57,555 nt of DNA. Origin: Endomicrobium sp. (GTDB lineage: Bacteria > Elusimicrobiota > Endomicrobiia > Endomicrobiales > Endomicrobiaceae). The stretch is from NCBI GenBank assembly GCA_031286985.1, contig JAITTL010000032.1, forward strand, positions 1 to 57,555, in the 5' to 3' direction. The notes under the pieces are model-generated. The model was not told where the DNA came from. It saw only the letters and a list, made by a program, of their open reading frames with translations, and ran no database searches. Position 1 is the first letter of the stretch. The number at the start of each line of letters is the position of its first letter. Shown piece by piece: positions 718 to 51,408 of this stretch. A program made the translations under genes and the position numbers.

Positions 718-3700
718 ATGATAGTAGATATGGAGATAGTAAACAGGAAGGTAAGGGGCTGTGTAATTTTGGGTATAGTGTATATAATAGGATTTGGTTT
801 ATCGAAGAGTGCGATATCGAGTTGTCAGTCTAGTAGAGATATGGAGATGGAGGAAAGAGCAAGAAGAGTCTTAGTTGATTTGGTTAATTTTGTAGGAGGA
901 CCGGACGTTAGAGGGATGATAAAAGAGTGTGCCCGAGTAAAGGCTATTAAGGACGCTCTGCAGACGATCCATAATAGATTTGAAGAAGCAAACGAAGAGA
1001 AACAAGCTCGATTATACAATAATAGACTTGAAGAAGTAGACGAAGAAGGAGGAAGGGTGACCGCTGGCAAGGCTATCAATGAGAAACAAGCTCGATTATA
1101 CAATGATATAATCACCGTCGCCTTCGATATCCGCGCCGCCGTCCGCGCCGAAGTCAGCCAGATTCGCACTTGCAACACTGCCTACAGCAGTCTCCTCCGT
1201 GACGTTAGCGAATGGTTAATTGCTGCTGCCATCGATCACGCCAACGCCGCTGCTATTACCGGCAATACCATCGCCCGCGCCCTCGCCGATGCCGCATGGA
1301 CTAACGTCGGCATCACTCGTGCTGCCATCATCAACGCTGGCGTTCAAATTGCCACCGATTACGACAACACCGTCAACTCCAGCGTCTGTTGCAGCATCGG
1401 CGCCGTCCGCGCTGTCCGTGTTGGCATCAGCGCTTCCATCGCCCGCGCCTACTGCGCTGCCGTTAACGGAACCGCCATTGCCCGCGCCATCAACGCCGCC
1501 GGTGCCAATATTGCTGCCGTCTACAACGCCGCCTTCAAACACACTTACCGTGCTTCAGCTAACGTCCCTAGCACCATTGTCCCAGTTCCCTACGCCGCCA
1601 TCCGCGCCGTCATCGCCACCGTCTACAATGCCGCCTACAACGCCGCCCTCGCCAGCGGCGCCACCCGCGACGACGCCATACACGCCGGCATCGTCATCGC
1701 CATCAACCAAGGCGCCGCCGGCATCGTCGCTTCCAAGTTCTACGACAATGCCGCCGACATAGCCCGTAATGCCGTCGCCGTCGGCATCGCCGCCGCCTAT
1801 GACAACACTGCTGGCAACGAATCCCACATCAGTATCGCCCGTATCCACATCAACGCTTTAGCAGCCGACGGCGCCGGCATCATCGCCTATGTTCGCGCCG
1901 CTTTCGTTGACGCTTACAACGTTGCCTACCTCGCCGCACTCAATGGGGACATCACATTCGACGACGCCATTAGAACCGGTATTTTAGCTGGCCGCGCCGC
2001 CGCCCTCGCTGCCGCCATCACGGGGGCCAAAGTCGCATACGTCATCGTCACTGATAGTGCCTACCTCGCCGCCTATGCCGTTGTATTCAGCAACTTCGTC
2101 GGATACATCGCCACCAAAACCGACCGTGCCGCCCTCGCCCCCAACGACCTCGATACCTACGACGTCGCCCGAATCGCCCGCGCCGCCGCCGGCGCCAACG
2201 CCCACGTCGCCGTCGTCAATGCTCTCGCCGGTGTCAACGTCGTCGCTGACATCGCTGAGGCCTACAACGCCGCTCGCGCCGCTGCTGGCAACGTCGCCAC
2301 CATCGCAGTCGACGCTGGCATCACCGCCGCCATTGCCTGCGCCACCCGCATCGCCATTACTGGCGCCAGCATCGCCGCCATCATCGACGCCGGAGTTTCC
2401 ATCTTTTTTGGTGGGAAGGGCATCGCCAGCAGCAACGTTATCTTCAACAGCACCCGCAACGTCGCTGACGCCTACACCGGCGGCGTCACAGCCGCCATCG
2501 CCGCCGGTGTCCATGACATCGCCGCCGTCAACGCCGGTATTGACGCCGCCGTCATCGCTGCTGTCCCCGCCGCCGCCGACACCGTCATCGACGCTGCCCG
2601 CTGCGCCGCCAATAAATACGTCACCGCCGTCCGCCATGTCGTTGCCAATATCATTTCCAGGGCCACCGGCGCAGCGGACGCCGCTGCCCACATTGCTGCC
2701 GCCGCCGCCGATGCCTACGTTATCGCCGTCAACACCGATTTCGCCAACGGCAGCGTCGCAGTCAACGCCGTCAACGCCTGCGTTACCGCCGCCATCGCTG
2801 TCGCCGCTCACGCCCCTCTCACAGCAGATCAGGTTCAAGCTTACAATGAGTACAAAGAAGCTCTGAGAATAGCATTAATAAACTATAGAGAAAGGTTTGA
2901 TGAAGCAAACAAAGAACTAGTAAAGGAGTTAGGATGCGAGTATGATGCAGTGCAAGATATGGAGGAAAAAGCTCAAAGAGTTTATGGAGACCCTTGTGTT
3001 GTAGGTATAGGTACAGGGTTAATAGCCGATTGGCTCAAGGGTAAACAAGATTTGAGAGATGCGATACGTAGTAATGATCAAGCAAGAATCACACAACTGA
3101 CAAAATCAGTAGCTGACCTAGAGGAACAATATAACAACGCGTCATCGGATTTAAAATTTGCAGCAAGAAAGCTAACAGCAGCTCAAGAAGTGAATTTTGC
3201 AAGGGAAGATGTTGAAAAGAAGGAAAAAGAGTTGAGAAGGCGAGTGAAAGCATTGGAAAATGTAATAAAAAACGCCTCGGAGGATTATGCAACAAAAAAA
3301 GACATTGTACTAGAAGAGAGAAAGAAATTTGAATTTGAAGTTGCGGAGTCGAGGTTAAAGTTAAAAGAGAAAGACCGATATTTGAAAGCAGTGAATGCTG
3401 AGGAGATAGAAAGAGTGAAAATTGAACTAGCAAGAGAAGCTTATGAAGCAGCGGATAAAGCTTTGAAAACTGTGAAAGGAGCAAATGCACCAGCAGATGA
3501 AATAGCGCGTGCGGAAAGGGATGAGGCTACAAAGGAGAGAGAGCTTAAAGCCGTGGAAGTAAATTCAAAAATAAGAGGAAGGATTGTAGATGTTTTATCA
3601 AGGTTAGAATATATAGATCAGGAGTGTGTTCGAGTGGAGGGATGTTTGAGATTTTTGACCGCCCAGAAAGGAATGTTGATGGGGATACAGGATTCGGATC

Positions 3701-6330
3701 CAGAGAAAAAAATAATGGAACATACAGATATGAAAACGAAGTTAGGGAAAGAGAAAGAATCAATACTTAAAGTGGTAGAAGATTTAGAAAGTGAGATAGA
3801 AGAAAGAAGAGGAATTAGGCAAATAGAAGCGAGTTTATATGATAAAGGCATGGAGTTGGAAGTCTTGAAAGCGTCCGTGAATCCTAATAAGGATCGTCTG
3901 GACAGTCTGCAAAGAGAGAGAGACCAGATAAAAGAGGAGCTTACGGAAGCAAGATTTAAATTAAAGGTAAAGAAGATAGGGACGCAGAAATTAATAGCAG
4001 AGATGGATGTAGAAGACCAAAGAAGAGAGGTTGTTTTTAGGGAAGAAGCACGGGATAAAAAGAATAGAGAGTTGGCCCAAATGAAAGCACGGAACACAGC
4101 CGACGATTTAGTAAAGGCTAAAGAGAGAGAAATAGTTGTGCTAGAGGGAGTAGTAGTGGATGCGCAGAAATATTTAGAGATAAAAAAGATAGAATTTAAG
4201 AATTTGAGAAGAATGGAAGAAGGAGTAAAAGAGGTTGATAAAAAGAGAAAAGAGTTAGCAGAAGCGAAGGCTCAGGATCCTGAATCTAAAGAGGTAGAGG
4301 AGCTAGAGAAAGGGAAGAACTTTTTGGAAGAACGGTTAAAATCAGAAAAAGATTTAAGGGAAGAAGTTGTAAAATGTGTAGGAGCAGGTGATAGGCTTGA
4401 GCGTATGACAAAAAAAGCTGTCGAAATATTGGGAAGGTTGTCAATAGAGGACGGCAGCGAAGGTAGCCCCGCTGGCTCCGCTGATCGAGATAGACTGGAA
4501 GGAGAATTAAAAGTACTGCTGGAAAGCGCAACAGAATTTAGAGAGGTTCGTGATTTGAAAGAATTAGAAGTAAGAAAGTTGCTTGCAGAAGCGGACGTAA
4601 CAATAAAGGCAGCGGCAGTAAAGGGTGGGAGTGATGATGGTAGTAAAACAGGCAAAGGGGACACAGTTTCAGATAAGGAAATAGAAGGAGTAATAAAAGG
4701 ATATAGGGTAAGAGAAGGAACAATAAAGGCAGCGATGAGAGGAGCGGAGATAACAGCGACAGAAGAGAACAGAAAGAATTTACAAGAAGGGTACAGAGAG
4801 CTGGAGAGTCTTAAATCGAAGGTAGACGTAGCAGTGGATGGAACAGCGAAAGAGGAAGCAAAGAAAGCAGTAGAAGAGTGGTGGGATGAATTAGCAGTGC
4901 TCAACGAAAGGAATAAGAGATTGATAAAAGAACAAGAGAAAGCGTTCGATAGAGAGATGGAAGAGTTTTTAAAGAAAGATAAAGGATATGTAGATCTTAA
5001 AGGCGAGATAGAAACGATTAAAGAAAAGATCAAAGGTGCAAGTGGTACACCAACACCAACATCAGGAACAGGATCAGCACCAGGAACACAACCAGCAGCA
5101 GGAGACCAACCAATATTGATAGGAGGAGGGGAAGACGAAGATAAGATGGTTGAGCTAAAAAGGCAACAAGAAGACATAGCGATAGCGTATAGAGAGAAGA
5201 TTAAACTAAAGTTAAGTATGGATGTAAGTTTATCAACGGATCCAGATTCAAGAGGACAAGCAGAAGGGAGTTTAGGATTTGTGGGGAACATGGTAAGAGG
5301 AGTAGGAAGTGTAAGTTATGGAGAAGAAGTATTTAGAGAGATGGTGAGAGTGGAGAAAGGGGAAGCAGAGAAAGCAGAGAAAGGAGAGAAGTGGAAGGTA
5401 TATGGGAAAGGGAAGTACAAGTATGTGACATTAGAAGGTACAGAGAAGTCGCCAGGAGAGTATAAGGATAGCCAAGTAGGAGGAGTAATAGGAGTAACGA
5501 AATGGTTGAGAGAAGAAAGAGAAAGAGGATTTGTGATAGGGGCGTTTGTGGGGATTGATGGTCATAGCATGACGCAGAAGAAGAAGGTGTACAAGAAAGA
5601 AGAGAAAGAAAAGGAGAAAGGAGGAGAAGCAGTAACACCAGCAGCAGAAGAAGGAAGAAAGGAATTGGAAGTGAATGTAATGAGAATGGAAGATAGTAAA
5701 GGTAAAGTAAGGAGCGTAGTATTAGGGATGTGTGGAGGGTATATAGATCCGAATTTTGAGGTAAGGATGTTATTGAGAGGAAGGATAAATAAGTACGAGG
5801 TAGAGAGACTAGGGAATAAAGTATTTATGGAGAAAGAAGGGACAAAGTTTAGCGGAAAAGGGATAGGAGGAGAATTAGAGGGGAAGTATAGGATAAGAGT
5901 TAGTGATGTTGTGGTAATAGGCCCGTGGATAGGGATAGAAGTATCGCAAGAGAATTATGATGGGGATGATGAGAAGATAGTAAAGGATGGAGGTTACGGC
6001 AGGTCGTTATTAGGGATAGGCTGGGAAGCAAGGACGAGGGTAGGAGAGGTAGGAGTGATAAGTTTGAAAGCAGGGTACAGGAGACTGTTAAGTGGAGAAG
6101 TACCGAAGATAAAGATAGGAGAGATAGCGGATAGTAAGAAGGAGAAGTACAAGAAGAATAAGGAGATAGAAGGAGAAGGTATAGAAGAAGGGAAGGACGT
6201 AGTGGAGGTAACGTTAGGATTAAATTTGGACTTAGGGAAAGGATTTGGGACATCAGGGATGGTGAAATACACGAAAGCAGAGCATTTCCAGGACATAGGA
6301 GCGAACTTAGGATTTAGTTATAAGTTTTAG
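718..6330 (+). CDS. Giant autotransporter-like surface protein with alanine-rich island, coiled coil and C-terminal beta-barrel
   Basis: This 1870-residue protein probably sits in the outer membrane and displays a long fibrous passenger. The start is set by GGAGG 7 nt before the ATG. Residues about 12-34 form a hydrophobic signal-like segment. Residues about 130-704 are extremely rich in Ala, Ile, Val, Asn and Asp. Residues about 705-1440 are charged, Glu/Lys-rich and strongly coiled-coil-like. A Pro/Thr/Gly/Ala linker follows (about 1440-1465). The last ~380 residues alternate polar and hydrophobic strands and end in Phe (GFSYKF), as outer-membrane beta-barrels do. Composition switches sharply inside the gene. 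In the line 2221-2280 I count 41 of 60 G+C and 19 of 20 codons ending in a pyrimidine; in 4681-4740, 19 of 20 codons end in a purine. The family is assigned by architecture, not by a recognised passenger domain. It could also be called an adhesin. The island looks inserted or expanded. Confidence 0.75.
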   Translation: MIVDMEIVNRKVRGCVILGIVYIIGFGLSKSAISSCQSSRDMEMEERARRVLVDLVNFVGGPDVRGMIKECARVKAIKDALQTIHNRFEEANEEKQARLYNNRLEEVDEEGGRVTAGKAINEKQARLYNDIITVAFDIRAAVRAEVSQIRTCNTAYSSLLRDVSEWLIAAAIDHANAAAITGNTIARALADAAWTNVGITRAAIINAGVQIATDYDNTVNSSVCCSIGAVRAVRVGISASIARAYCAAVNGTAIARAINAAGANIAAVYNAAFKHTYRASANVPSTIVPVPYAAIRAVIATVYNAAYNAALASGATRDDAIHAGIVIAINQGAAGIVASKFYDNAADIARNAVAVGIAAAYDNTAGNESHISIARIHINALAADGAGIIAYVRAAFVDAYNVAYLAALNGDITFDDAIRTGILAGRAAALAAAITGAKVAYVIVTDSAYLAAYAVVFSNFVGYIATKTDRAALAPNDLDTYDVARIARAAAGANAHVAVVNALAGVNVVADIAEAYNAARAAAGNVATIAVDAGITAAIACATRIAITGASIAAIIDAGVSIFFGGKGIASSNVIFNSTRNVADAYTGGVTAAIAAGVHDIAAVNAGIDAAVIAAVPAAADTVIDAARCAANKYVTAVRHVVANIISRATGAADAAAHIAAAAADAYVIAVNTDFANGSVAVNAVNACVTAAIAVAAHAPLTADQVQAYNEYKEALRIALINYRERFDEANKELVKELGCEYDAVQDMEEKAQRVYGDPCVVGIGTGLIADWLKGKQDLRDAIRSNDQARITQLTKSVADLEEQYNNASSDLKFAARKLTAAQEVNFAREDVEKKEKELRRRVKALENVIKNASEDYATKKDIVLEERKKFEFEVAESRLKLKEKDRYLKAVNAEEIERVKIELAREAYEAADKALKTVKGANAPADEIARAERDEATKERELKAVEVNSKIRGRIVDVLSRLEYIDQECVRVEGCLRFLTAQKGMLMGIQDSDPEKKIMEHTDMKTKLGKEKESILKVVEDLESEIEERRGIRQIEASLYDKGMELEVLKASVNPNKDRLDSLQRERDQIKEELTEARFKLKVKKIGTQKLIAEMDVEDQRREVVFREEARDKKNRELAQMKARNTADDLVKAKEREIVVLEGVVVDAQKYLEIKKIEFKNLRRMEEGVKEVDKKRKELAEAKAQDPESKEVEELEKGKNFLEERLKSEKDLREEVVKCVGAGDRLERMTKKAVEILGRLSIEDGSEGSPAGSADRDRLEGELKVLLESATEFREVRDLKELEVRKLLAEADVTIKAAAVKGGSDDGSKTGKGDTVSDKEIEGVIKGYRVREGTIKAAMRGAEITATEENRKNLQEGYRELESLKSKVDVAVDGTAKEEAKKAVEEWWDELAVLNERNKRLIKEQEKAFDREMEEFLKKDKGYVDLKGEIETIKEKIKGASGTPTPTSGTGSAPGTQPAAGDQPILIGGGEDEDKMVELKRQQEDIAIAYREKIKLKLSMDVSLSTDPDSRGQAEGSLGFVGNMVRGVGSVSYGEEVFREMVRVEKGEAEKAEKGEKWKVYGKGKYKYVTLEGTEKSPGEYKDSQVGGVIGVTKWLREERERGFVIGAFVGIDGHSMTQKKKVYKKEEKEKEKGGEAVTPAAEEGRKELEVNVMRMEDSKGKVRSVVLGMCGGYIDPNFEVRMLLRGRINKYEVERLGNKVFMEKEGTKFSGKGIGGELEGKYRIRVSDVVVIGPWIGIEVSQENYDGDDEKIVKDGGYGRSLLGIGWEARTRVGEVGVISLKAGYRRLLSGEVPKIKIGEIADSKKEKYKKNKEIEGEGIEEGKDVVEVTLGLNLDLGKGFGTSGMVKYTKAEHFQDIGANLGFSYKF
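997..1104 (+). repeat. 24-bp exact direct repeat, 84 bp apart, at the left edge of the GC-rich island
   Basis: Positions 997-1020 and 1081-1104 are identical (they begin GAGAAACAAGCTCG and end TACAAT). They are spaced 84 bp apart, so the reading frame is kept (28 codons); both copies encode EKQARLYN. The GC-rich, pyrimidine-ending codons begin directly after the second copy. A shortened relative (CAAGCT then TACAATGA, encoding QAYNE) lies at about 2836-2850, just past the right edge of the island. Confidence 0.8.
1105..2830 (+). other. GC-rich, C-ending-codon island inside the surface-protein gene
   Basis: This block encodes residues about 130-704 of the surface protein. Codons are mostly of the form purine-any-pyrimidine (GCC, GTC, ATC, AAC, GAC), with many Ala. 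That form is its own complement, so the minus strand and another plus frame also stay open over long stretches: Gly/Asp/Val-rich at 1984-2838 minus, Pro/Ser/Thr-rich at 2057-2866 plus. Only the main frame joins both flanks without a stop, so it is taken as the real one. Repeats at protein level are loose (AG..IA, YNAA, AAI.AG patterns) rather than exact tandem units. Confidence 0.7.
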
Positions 6331-48981: not shown

Positions 48982-51408
48982 ATGAGTGAATTAGATAGAT
49001 TTAGCAGTGATAAAATTGAAAATCTCAAAATTCCAGATACCCTTCCACTTCTTCCTGTAAGAGATATTATTTTGTACCCAGCTATGGTTCTTCCTCTTGC
49101 TGTTGGCAGAGAAAAGTCTATTAAGGCTTTGGAAGAGTCTATGGCTACAAATAGGCTTGTTTTCATCGTTACTCAAAAAAATATTCAAGTTGAGGATCCT
49201 ACGCCAAATGATATCTATAACATCGGGACAATATGTGAAGTTCTTCAAATATTAAAGATGCCGGATGGAACGCTGAAAGCGCTTGTGGAAGGAATAAGCA
49301 GAGCGCAATGGACAGATTTTAGATTAAATGATAACGGTTATATCGAAGTAGGGATAAAACTTTTTGATGAAAAAGTTGAAAAAACCCCTGAAGCTGAAGC
49401 TGTTATGAGAAGAACAATTGCTCTTTTTGAACAATATGTAAAATTAAATCCTAGAATGCCAATGGAAATTTCTATTTCTGTAAGTAATATTGTTGATCCT
49501 GCAAGGCTTGCAGATATCATAGCATCGCATCTTGCAATAAAAAACAACGATAAACAGGCAGTTTTAGAACTTGTAAATCCTCTTGAACGTTTGGAGAAAA
49601 TAATACAAGTACTAAACTCAGAAATAGAAATATTAAACATAGAAAAACGTATTCAAAGCAGGGTGAGAAATCAAATAGAAAAGACGCAGAAAGAGTATTA
49701 TCTTACCGAGCAGATGAAAGCTATTCAGAAAGAGCTCAAACAAAAAGACGATATACAAAAAGATGTTGATGAACTAAAGGAAAAATTAAAAAAGATAAAA
49801 ATACCTCAAGCTGCTAAAGATATTGTTGACAAAGAAATGATTAGGCTTGAAAAGATGATGCCAATGTCTCCTGAAGCCACGGTTGTAAGAAATTACATTG
49901 AGTGGATTTTAGATTTACCATGGGAAAAATCGACTTCAGATAATTTGGATTTAAAAAGAGCTGAAGAAATTTTAAATCAAGATCATTATGGATTGGAAAA
50001 AATTAAAGATAGAATATTAGAGTATCTTGCGGTTTTGTCAAGAGTTCAAAAAATTAAAGGCCCTATTCTTTGCTTTATAGGTCCTCCTGGCGTTGGTAAA
50101 ACTTCTATTGCGAAATCTGTTGCAAGGAGTCTTGGAAGAAATTTTGTAAGGATATCGATGGGAGGAGTTAGCGATGAATGTGAAATAAGAGGACACAGAC
50201 GCACTTATATAGGTTCGATGCCTGGAAAAATTATACAATCAATAAAAAAGGCAGGTTCGAATAATCCGGTGTTTATTTTGGATGAAATAGATAAAATGGG
50301 ATCTGATTGGAGAGGTGATCCTTCTTCTGCTTTACTTGAAGTTTTAGATCCTGAACAAAATTATGCTTTTGGGGATCATTATCTTAATATGGACTTTGAT
50401 TTGTCGAACGTTATGTTTATAACTACTGCAAATGCATTGAGTAGTATTCCAATTACTCTGCTTGACAGATTAGAACTGATAAGATTTTCTGGTTATACAG
50501 ATGTAGAAAAACATAAAATAGCGGAAGATTTTATAATTCCCAAACAATTAAAAGAGCATGGGTTAAGCTCTAATGAGTTCATTTTTGCTGAAGGGACGCT
50601 TGATGCTATAATCAAGAATTACACATATGAAGCTGGTGTTCGTAATTTAACTAGAGAGATTGCAAATCTTTGCAGAAAAGTTGTAAAGGAGCTTGAATTT
50701 GATAAAGGGTTAAAAACTATAACAATTACGATGCAAAATCTGAATAAGTATTTAGGTATAGCTCACTATGAAAGAGAAAGAATTGCAGAAAATGACGTAG
50801 GTGTAGTAACTGGGCTTGCATGGACAGAAATTGGAGGTGAGACGCTTACGATAGAAGTAAATAAGATGCAAGGTAAAGGCGCTTTGGTACTTACGGGAAA
50901 ACTTGGTGATGTTATGAAAGAGTCTGCTCAAGCAGCTTTAACGTATGTACGGTCAGCATCTAAAAAACTTGGTATCGATGAAAATATGTTTCCAAGCACA
51001 GATTTCCATATCCATGTTCCTGAGGGTGCTGTACCAAAAGATGGACCTAGTGCCGGAATAGCTTTAGCAACTTCGCTTGCTTCAGTTTGTATGAATAAGC
51101 CTGTAAAGAAAAAAATTGCAATGACTGGAGAAGTTACTTTAAGAGGAAGGGTACTTGGTATAGGTGGTCTTAAAGAAAAAGTTCTTGCGGCTTACAGGGA
51201 AGGTGTGACAACTGTGTTATTTCCTGAAAGCAATAAAAAAGATTTAGTTGACATTCCAAGTGATGTTAAAAATAATTTAAAAATGATCCCAGTTTCTCAT
51301 ATGGATGATGTAATTTCTTTGGTTATAGAGAAAATTTCAAAAAAAGAAAGTAAAGCAAAAAGAACCAGAAATGAAAAACAAAAGGATAAAAAAACTAAAA
51401 AAAGATAA
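48982..51408 (+). CDS. lon: ATP-dependent Lon protease
   Basis: It degrades misfolded and regulatory proteins in the cytoplasm. The N-terminal substrate domain opens with LPLLPVRDIILYPAMVLPL. Walker A is GPPGVGKT (from residue 367) and Walker B is FILDEIDKM. The serine-lysine protease site has Ser690 in DGPSAG. The 808 residues are normal. AAGGAG precedes the ATG. The C-terminus is a long Lys/Arg-rich tail. Confidence 0.97.
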   Translation: MSELDRFSSDKIENLKIPDTLPLLPVRDIILYPAMVLPLAVGREKSIKALEESMATNRLVFIVTQKNIQVEDPTPNDIYNIGTICEVLQILKMPDGTLKALVEGISRAQWTDFRLNDNGYIEVGIKLFDEKVEKTPEAEAVMRRTIALFEQYVKLNPRMPMEISISVSNIVDPARLADIIASHLAIKNNDKQAVLELVNPLERLEKIIQVLNSEIEILNIEKRIQSRVRNQIEKTQKEYYLTEQMKAIQKELKQKDDIQKDVDELKEKLKKIKIPQAAKDIVDKEMIRLEKMMPMSPEATVVRNYIEWILDLPWEKSTSDNLDLKRAEEILNQDHYGLEKIKDRILEYLAVLSRVQKIKGPILCFIGPPGVGKTSIAKSVARSLGRNFVRISMGGVSDECEIRGHRRTYIGSMPGKIIQSIKKAGSNNPVFILDEIDKMGSDWRGDPSSALLEVLDPEQNYAFGDHYLNMDFDLSNVMFITTANALSSIPITLLDRLELIRFSGYTDVEKHKIAEDFIIPKQLKEHGLSSNEFIFAEGTLDAIIKNYTYEAGVRNLTREIANLCRKVVKELEFDKGLKTITITMQNLNKYLGIAHYERERIAENDVGVVTGLAWTEIGGETLTIEVNKMQGKGALVLTGKLGDVMKESAQAALTYVRSASKKLGIDENMFPSTDFHIHVPEGAVPKDGPSAGIALATSLASVCMNKPVKKKIAMTGEVTLRGRVLGIGGLKEKVLAAYREGVTTVLFPESNKKDLVDIPSDVKNNLKMIPVSHMDDVISLVIEKISKKESKAKRTRNEKQKDKKTKKR

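Follow-up and report, generated by a model that had tools for sequence, protein, structure and literature searches.

The gene at positions 718-6330 of the window (57,555 nucleotides, the entire contig C6 of a 0.98 Mb draft genome) probably encodes a type Va autotransporter that shows an alpha-helical rod to the cytoplasm of its flagellate host, in the manner of the Rickettsia and Orientia Sca proteins. Its new features are an Ala-rich, differently coded island in the passenger, with sequence lost and style retained, and a passenger-swapping family with ADP-ribose-type domains in the Elusimicrobiota. The bacterium belongs to Candidatus Endomicrobiellum and lives as a symbiont inside the flagellates of termite guts: Lon (48982-51408) is 85% identical to that of Ca. 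Endomicrobiellum devescovinae and 84% identical to that of Ca. E. cryptotermitis, and the intracellular lifestyle of Endomicrobiellum has been described (PMC11257099), so that the protist endosymbiont supposed in the preliminary description is borne out. A full-text literature search for Endomicrobium together with autotransporter found no paper, and the main comparative study of the Endomicrobiaceae does not mention autotransporters (PMC11257099). We likewise found no description in the literature of the contact of Endomicrobiellum with its host inside termite flagellates; some 20 barrels with coiled-coil, polyglutamine and ADP-ribose-related (Macro, NUDIX) passengers are candidates for that interface. 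The island is, in addition, a clear example of retained codon style with lost sequence, and the explanations considered below account for it incompletely.

Architecture of the gene

The open reading frame is intact on the plus strand, where all its features lie: an ATG, 7 bases downstream of a ribosome-binding-site-like GGAGG (706-710), opens 1870 codons that end in a stop at 6328-6330. The composite protein read earlier from this DNA, with signal-like, Ala-rich, coiled-coil, Pro/Thr and barrel blocks in one frame, is thus confirmed, and its description as a passenger made of island and coiled coil is supported. Residues 1-34 (718-819), with a basic start and the hydrophobic stretch CVILGIVYIIGFGL, form a putative signal peptide, called by eye and by its conservation in the paralogs C29, C20 and C4, which share the segment at the protein level and partly at the DNA level. 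A Glu/Arg-rich N-terminal spacer in ordinary codons follows (820-1098), and within it stands the first copy (997-1024, reading KQARLYN) of a 28-bp direct repeat; the second copy (1081-1108), 96% identical to the first, marks the 5' edge of the island and is kept in C29. The putatively helical Ala-rich island occupies codons 128-701 (1099-2820), delimited by segmentation, by its C and T fractions and by helical periodicity. Beyond it lies a 3' edge motif (2833-2850, reading QVQAYNE) that is also kept in C29 and resembles the 5' edge motif.

The remainder of the passenger is a Glu/Lys/Arg-rich predicted coiled coil with purine third bases (residues 720-1440; 2875-5037), the hydrophobicity of which has a heptad-like period of 3.46 residues (z 4.1 above shuffles), and a Pro/Thr/Gly linker (residues 1441-1475; 5038-5142) that contains a short tandem array at 5055-5112. 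A predicted pre-barrel helix corresponding to the autotransporter alpha-linker (residues 1509-1530; 5242-5307) and a 12-stranded barrel (5392-6327) with Phe-1870 as its last residue complete the protein.

The leader 5' of the gene (1-717) is purine-rich, with a GC skew of about 0.75-0.8, and at 486-600 and 643-717 it resembles the C29 leader, with a similarity of about 70-73%; it is possibly a regulatory or recombination-relevant sequence.

The barrel and membership in type Va

An autotransporter barrel had been proposed for the C-terminal end, with structure prediction and a profile search as the checks, and both find it. The Pfam family Autotransporter (PF03797) matches residues 1656-1845 at 8.8e-13, over the cut-off, and the AlphaFold model, built on an alignment of 11 paralogs (pLDDT 77, pTM 0.77), consists of a helix at residues 5-26 of the construct (the 1509-1530 helix of the full protein) and 12 long strands that reach the penultimate residue. 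When this model is compared with the PDB by Foldseek, EstA comes first (9.6e-17), followed by AaaA, EspP, AIDA-I, Hbp, NalP and BrkA; the best 16 PDB matches are all autotransporters. The C-terminus reads ...GFSYKF, and the terminal Phe is kept in those paralogs whose end is present. With dN/dS of 0.24-0.31 among paralogs, the barrels are under purifying selection. Barrel, alpha-linker, each as modeled, and terminal Phe place the protein in type Va. The Pfam scan of the passenger gave no beta-helix repeat and the passenger has helical periodicity instead; a beta-helix passenger is common in type Va autotransporters and not obligatory.

Proposed working and relation to known systems

The type Va pathway is established: Sec export, BamA-assisted insertion of the barrel and passage of the passenger to the surface. 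By analogy, the protein would be exported by Sec, its barrel would be inserted by BamA and its passenger would pass to the outside, where residues from about 35 to 1475 would make a long, mostly alpha-helical exposed rod, with Ala-rich amphipathic helices towards the tip, the heptad coiled coil as a stalk and the Pro/Thr segment as a hinge. Such a rod would face the flagellate cytoplasm and might bind a host structure or form a coat. The variety of passengers may arise by recombination between conserved ends together with rapid replacement of low-complexity blocks, of which the island would be one, its sequence turning over faster than the barrel while helicity and C-ending style stay. The genome has its own BamA-like (Omp85) gene (match 1.3e-47). 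BamBCD and LptD are reported to be absent from the Endomicrobiaceae (PMC11257099), a point against the proposed export, which may not be efficient.

Alpha-helical passengers are known: they constitute the described autotransporter Group 14, with Sca1, Sca2, ScaC and Aae, of which Sca2 is linked with intracellular invasion and motility (PMC9289746), and Orientia ScaC is an alpha-helical, dimeric, coiled-coil autotransporter that recruits dynein adaptors (PMC12229497). Of the earlier remark that no described passenger was known to join such an island to a long coiled coil, what stands is the novelty of the Ala-rich, differently coded island. The likeness to Group 14 is claimed as one of working: a type Va barrel bears a passenger predicted to be alpha-helical or coiled-coil, and the Sca members likewise reside on intracellular bacteria. 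Our protein differs in coming from the Elusimicrobiota, in the deviating codon style of its Ala-rich island, and in belonging to a passenger-swapping family of about 20 members. EstA of Pseudomonas aeruginosa (PDB 3kvn), the best structural match of the barrel, also has a passenger without a beta-helix joined to the alpha-linker, but that passenger is a compact lipase and identity in the aligned region is 13%. The beta-helix autotransporters of other Endomicrobiellum genomes (L148-L157), with chlamydial Pmp-like repeats, belong to the same barrel family by profile; their passengers are mostly GGAIY beta-helices, some of the proteins have a C-terminal OmpA domain, and a C-ending island is present in none of those inspected. 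Variants of Ag43 resemble the family in shuffling passenger domains (PMC10058404), but Ag43 shuffles related passenger pieces, whereas the passengers of this genome are unrelated in content.

Codon style and predicted helical character of the island

The codon counts that first drew attention to the blocks are exact on recounting: in frame, third bases are pyrimidine in 19 of 20 codons at 2221-2280 and purine in 19 of 20 at 4681-4740. Maximum-likelihood segmentation on third-base purine flips at nucleotides 1099 and 2820 (log-likelihood gain 400), the purine fraction being 0.63 before the island, 0.077 inside it and 0.754 after it. Third bases of the island are 72% C, 20% T and 8% A+G, and its GC content lies at 56-69%, where the window as a whole has 34%. 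Beyond composition, the choice among synonymous codons shifts too. Ala is encoded by GCC in 127 of 170 instances in the island, 7 of 93 in the rest of the gene and 21 of 291 in the housekeeping reference (nine other genes of the window), Asn by AAC in 30 of 39 in the island against 37 of 208, and a C-ending shift is seen in Val, Thr, Ile, Asn, Asp, Tyr and Phe alike; Lys, Glu, Gln, Met and Trp, which need a purine third base, account for 2.7% of island residues and for 31% in the rest. Further long open reading frames within the island (269 aa on the plus strand and 284 aa on the minus strand) are due to the purine-any-pyrimidine pattern of its codons, so that an open frame by itself is weak evidence, and a gene in another frame or on the opposite strand was rejected on that ground. 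What supports the frame assigned here is that it runs without a break into both flanks and that a paralog has the same arrangement.

Hydrophobicity in the island has a period of 3.67 residues (z 3.5 above shuffles), which supports an alpha-helical structure, as does the similar alpha-helical periodicity of the C29 island. Structure prediction, the check proposed for this segment, failed: from an alignment of only 2 sequences AlphaFold gave no usable model (pLDDT 35), and the helical assignment rests accordingly on periodicity and composition.

The paralog in question, C29 (L017:5092-9102, on another contig of the same genome), has signal, Ala-rich C-ending island (third-base purine 0.185), coiled coil and barrel start in the same order, the block order that was to be sought elsewhere. 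Both island edges are kept in the two genes (5' KQA(R/Q)LYNDI, 3' QV(Q/K)AYN); the 5' motif is duplicated in C6, as the direct repeat described above. An assembly join or binning artefact could be suspected, since the composition edges are sharp, the genome is a draft and many contigs break off at barrels of the family. It was rejected as very improbable: the conserved order and edges of C29 show that the C6 island is no join, the frame is continuous, and the same contig carries Endomicrobiellum housekeeping genes.

The barrel starts of C6 and C29 are approximately 86% identical in DNA (dS 0.37), and the two islands align no better (E 0.43) than shuffles do (0.03-4.7). Codon style and helical character thus appear to persist in the islands, their sequence having evidently been lost. 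The C6 island has no homolog in the genus or in 16 more distant genomes and no convincing one in the PDB, and a Pfam scan over it gives no match. Nevertheless, the island is not the one-off that it was first taken to be: besides C29, a congener (G049) has three inspected proteins (L160, L161 and L163) with Ala-rich, GCC-dominated stretches, although none of these aligns with the C6 island.

In one of the three (L161:3265-5673, minus strand of G049:C13) the Ala-rich C-ending stretch adjoins a RING-finger-like motif of the C3HC4 type (Pfam 7.7e-05, under the cut-off), and the protein is possibly a eukaryote-like effector. Another (L163:3827-5539, minus strand of G049:C15) has a lipoprotein-like start (LSSC), GGSSTDTDSNKGSG tandem repeats, PDDPDV repeats and Ala-rich C-ending stretches.

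Origin of the island

Where such a segment might come from was considered under four explanations. Acquisition from the host flagellate, a phage or a bacterium with C-ending codons, followed by joining into the passenger, would account for the use of C-ending codons for almost all amino acids where the housekeeping genes have an AT-rich usage, for the high GC content and for the like stretches in secreted proteins of a congener, one of them beside the RING-finger-like motif. It is nonetheless rather unlikely: purine-ending codons of the islands prefer A, as in the genome itself (AAA 15 and AAG 4, GAA 7 and GAG 0 in C29), which is not expected from a donor with high GC3; G-ending fourfold codons are nearly absent (GCG 1 of 170); and the searches described above gave no convincing homolog and no domain. 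That the island grew inside the lineage, NNC codons multiplying by triplet slippage and duplication and then changing at positions 1 and 2, is slightly likelier than acquisition, and still doubtful. The C29 island contains an 80-codon duplication, the copies of which differ at 8, 12 and 4 sites of codon positions 1, 2 and 3; the family has plain triplet and dipeptide tracts (polyglutamine in C20, PT in C28), and there is an AAC/AGC/GGC/ACC tract in the genome of a congener. On the other hand, repeated codon words in the C6 island are not above codon shuffles (z -0.3 to 1.0) and tandem repeats are almost missing from it, so that slippage as the sole origin was rejected. In the C29 duplication dN (0.125) exceeds dS (0.059), an excess that is not significant (Fisher p 0.34); positive selection, although suggested by these values, was for this reason not accepted.

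Translational selection would favor C-ending codons, read by exact pairing, in a long, abundant and slippery Ala-rich protein. tRNAs with G34 were found for Ala, Val, Thr, Gly, Asn and Asp, so that C-ending codons for these residues are read by exact pairing, and the preferences of the island for C over T and for A over G both fit that rule; yet coiled coil and barrel, on the same mRNA, have no C-ending preference (the 7 of 93 Ala codons cited above), so that the translational demand would have to be local, and we regard this explanation as distinctly unlikely. A diversity-generating retroelement that randomizes codon bases 1 and 2 (AAY to NNY) would match third bases that are almost fixed with variable first and second positions. 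The usual target region of such elements is more than 10 times shorter than the island. No reverse transcriptase (PF00078) was found in 42 genomes of the genus, in a search that detected its positive control, nor was a template-like second copy; this candidate was rejected as exceedingly improbable. Of these explanations, the first three each account for some of the observations and fail on others. It is conceivable, if rather speculative, that the surface and secreted proteins of Endomicrobiellum carry renewable Ala-rich helical modules, in which sequence is replaced or diversified fast and a foreign C-ending style is maintained or regenerated; if true, this would imply an undescribed mutational, recombinational or translational process that makes new helical modules for host contact.

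The congener tract just mentioned (G013:C1:2586-2919) is more than 300 bp of in-phase triplets, encoding Asn, Ser, Gly and Thr if read in that frame. A pattern for third-base-C tracts has 32 matches in the genome of C6, with 21 in the polyglutamine gene C20, 4 in C28 and 5 in the C6 island, and several matches in G021 are the antisense of purine-rich frames. Such counts are confounded by polyQ, PT and polyC; inspected loci were relied on instead.

A barrel family with exchangeable passengers

A profile search with the barrel finds 28 places in the genome, many of them at contig ends, as is to be expected when a repeated family breaks an assembly, and we estimate about 20 barrel loci or fragments. 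The same profile matches 15 of 41 congeners, with 1 to 5 hits each; a barrel scan against genome_contigs gave zero matches. In BLASTN comparisons among C6, C29, C20 and C4, DNA is common in the leader and signal and in the barrel, not across passengers, a pattern that an exchange of passengers between conserved ends would produce. The passengers within the genome are mutually unrelated: polyglutamine, Pro/Thr and acidic repeats (C28, C4), coiled coils (C21, C14), NUDIX, Macro and DUF1810.

Polyglutamine tracts are rare in bacteria; the passenger tract of C20 (L011:3407-5701, plus strand) is about 60 residues long. C16 (L016:1-1008, minus strand) opens with a signal-like segment and a Macro domain (PF01661, 1.7e-19; its nearest solved relatives are DR_2288 and MACROD1/2), to which the first part of the same barrel is fused before the contig end cuts the gene. 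In C9 (L020:195-1697, plus strand) a NUDIX domain (PF00293, 3.4e-08; NUDIX box by eye) is fused to a barrel, the last strands of which continue in another frame, through a frameshift or a sequencing error, and in C23 (L015:4766-6613, minus strand) a DUF1810 domain (PF08837, 9.9e-45; nearest to Rv1873) is joined via KESAPPIGSAPPGP repeats to a complete barrel.

In the congeners, GGAIY beta-helices prevail among the inspected passengers, and some of the proteins have an OmpA-like C-terminus. Three of these autotransporters, L148 (1-5985, plus strand of G056:C1), L150 and L153, have an OmpA peptidoglycan-binding-like domain after the barrel (by a Pfam match in L148 and by eye in the other two), an unusual order.
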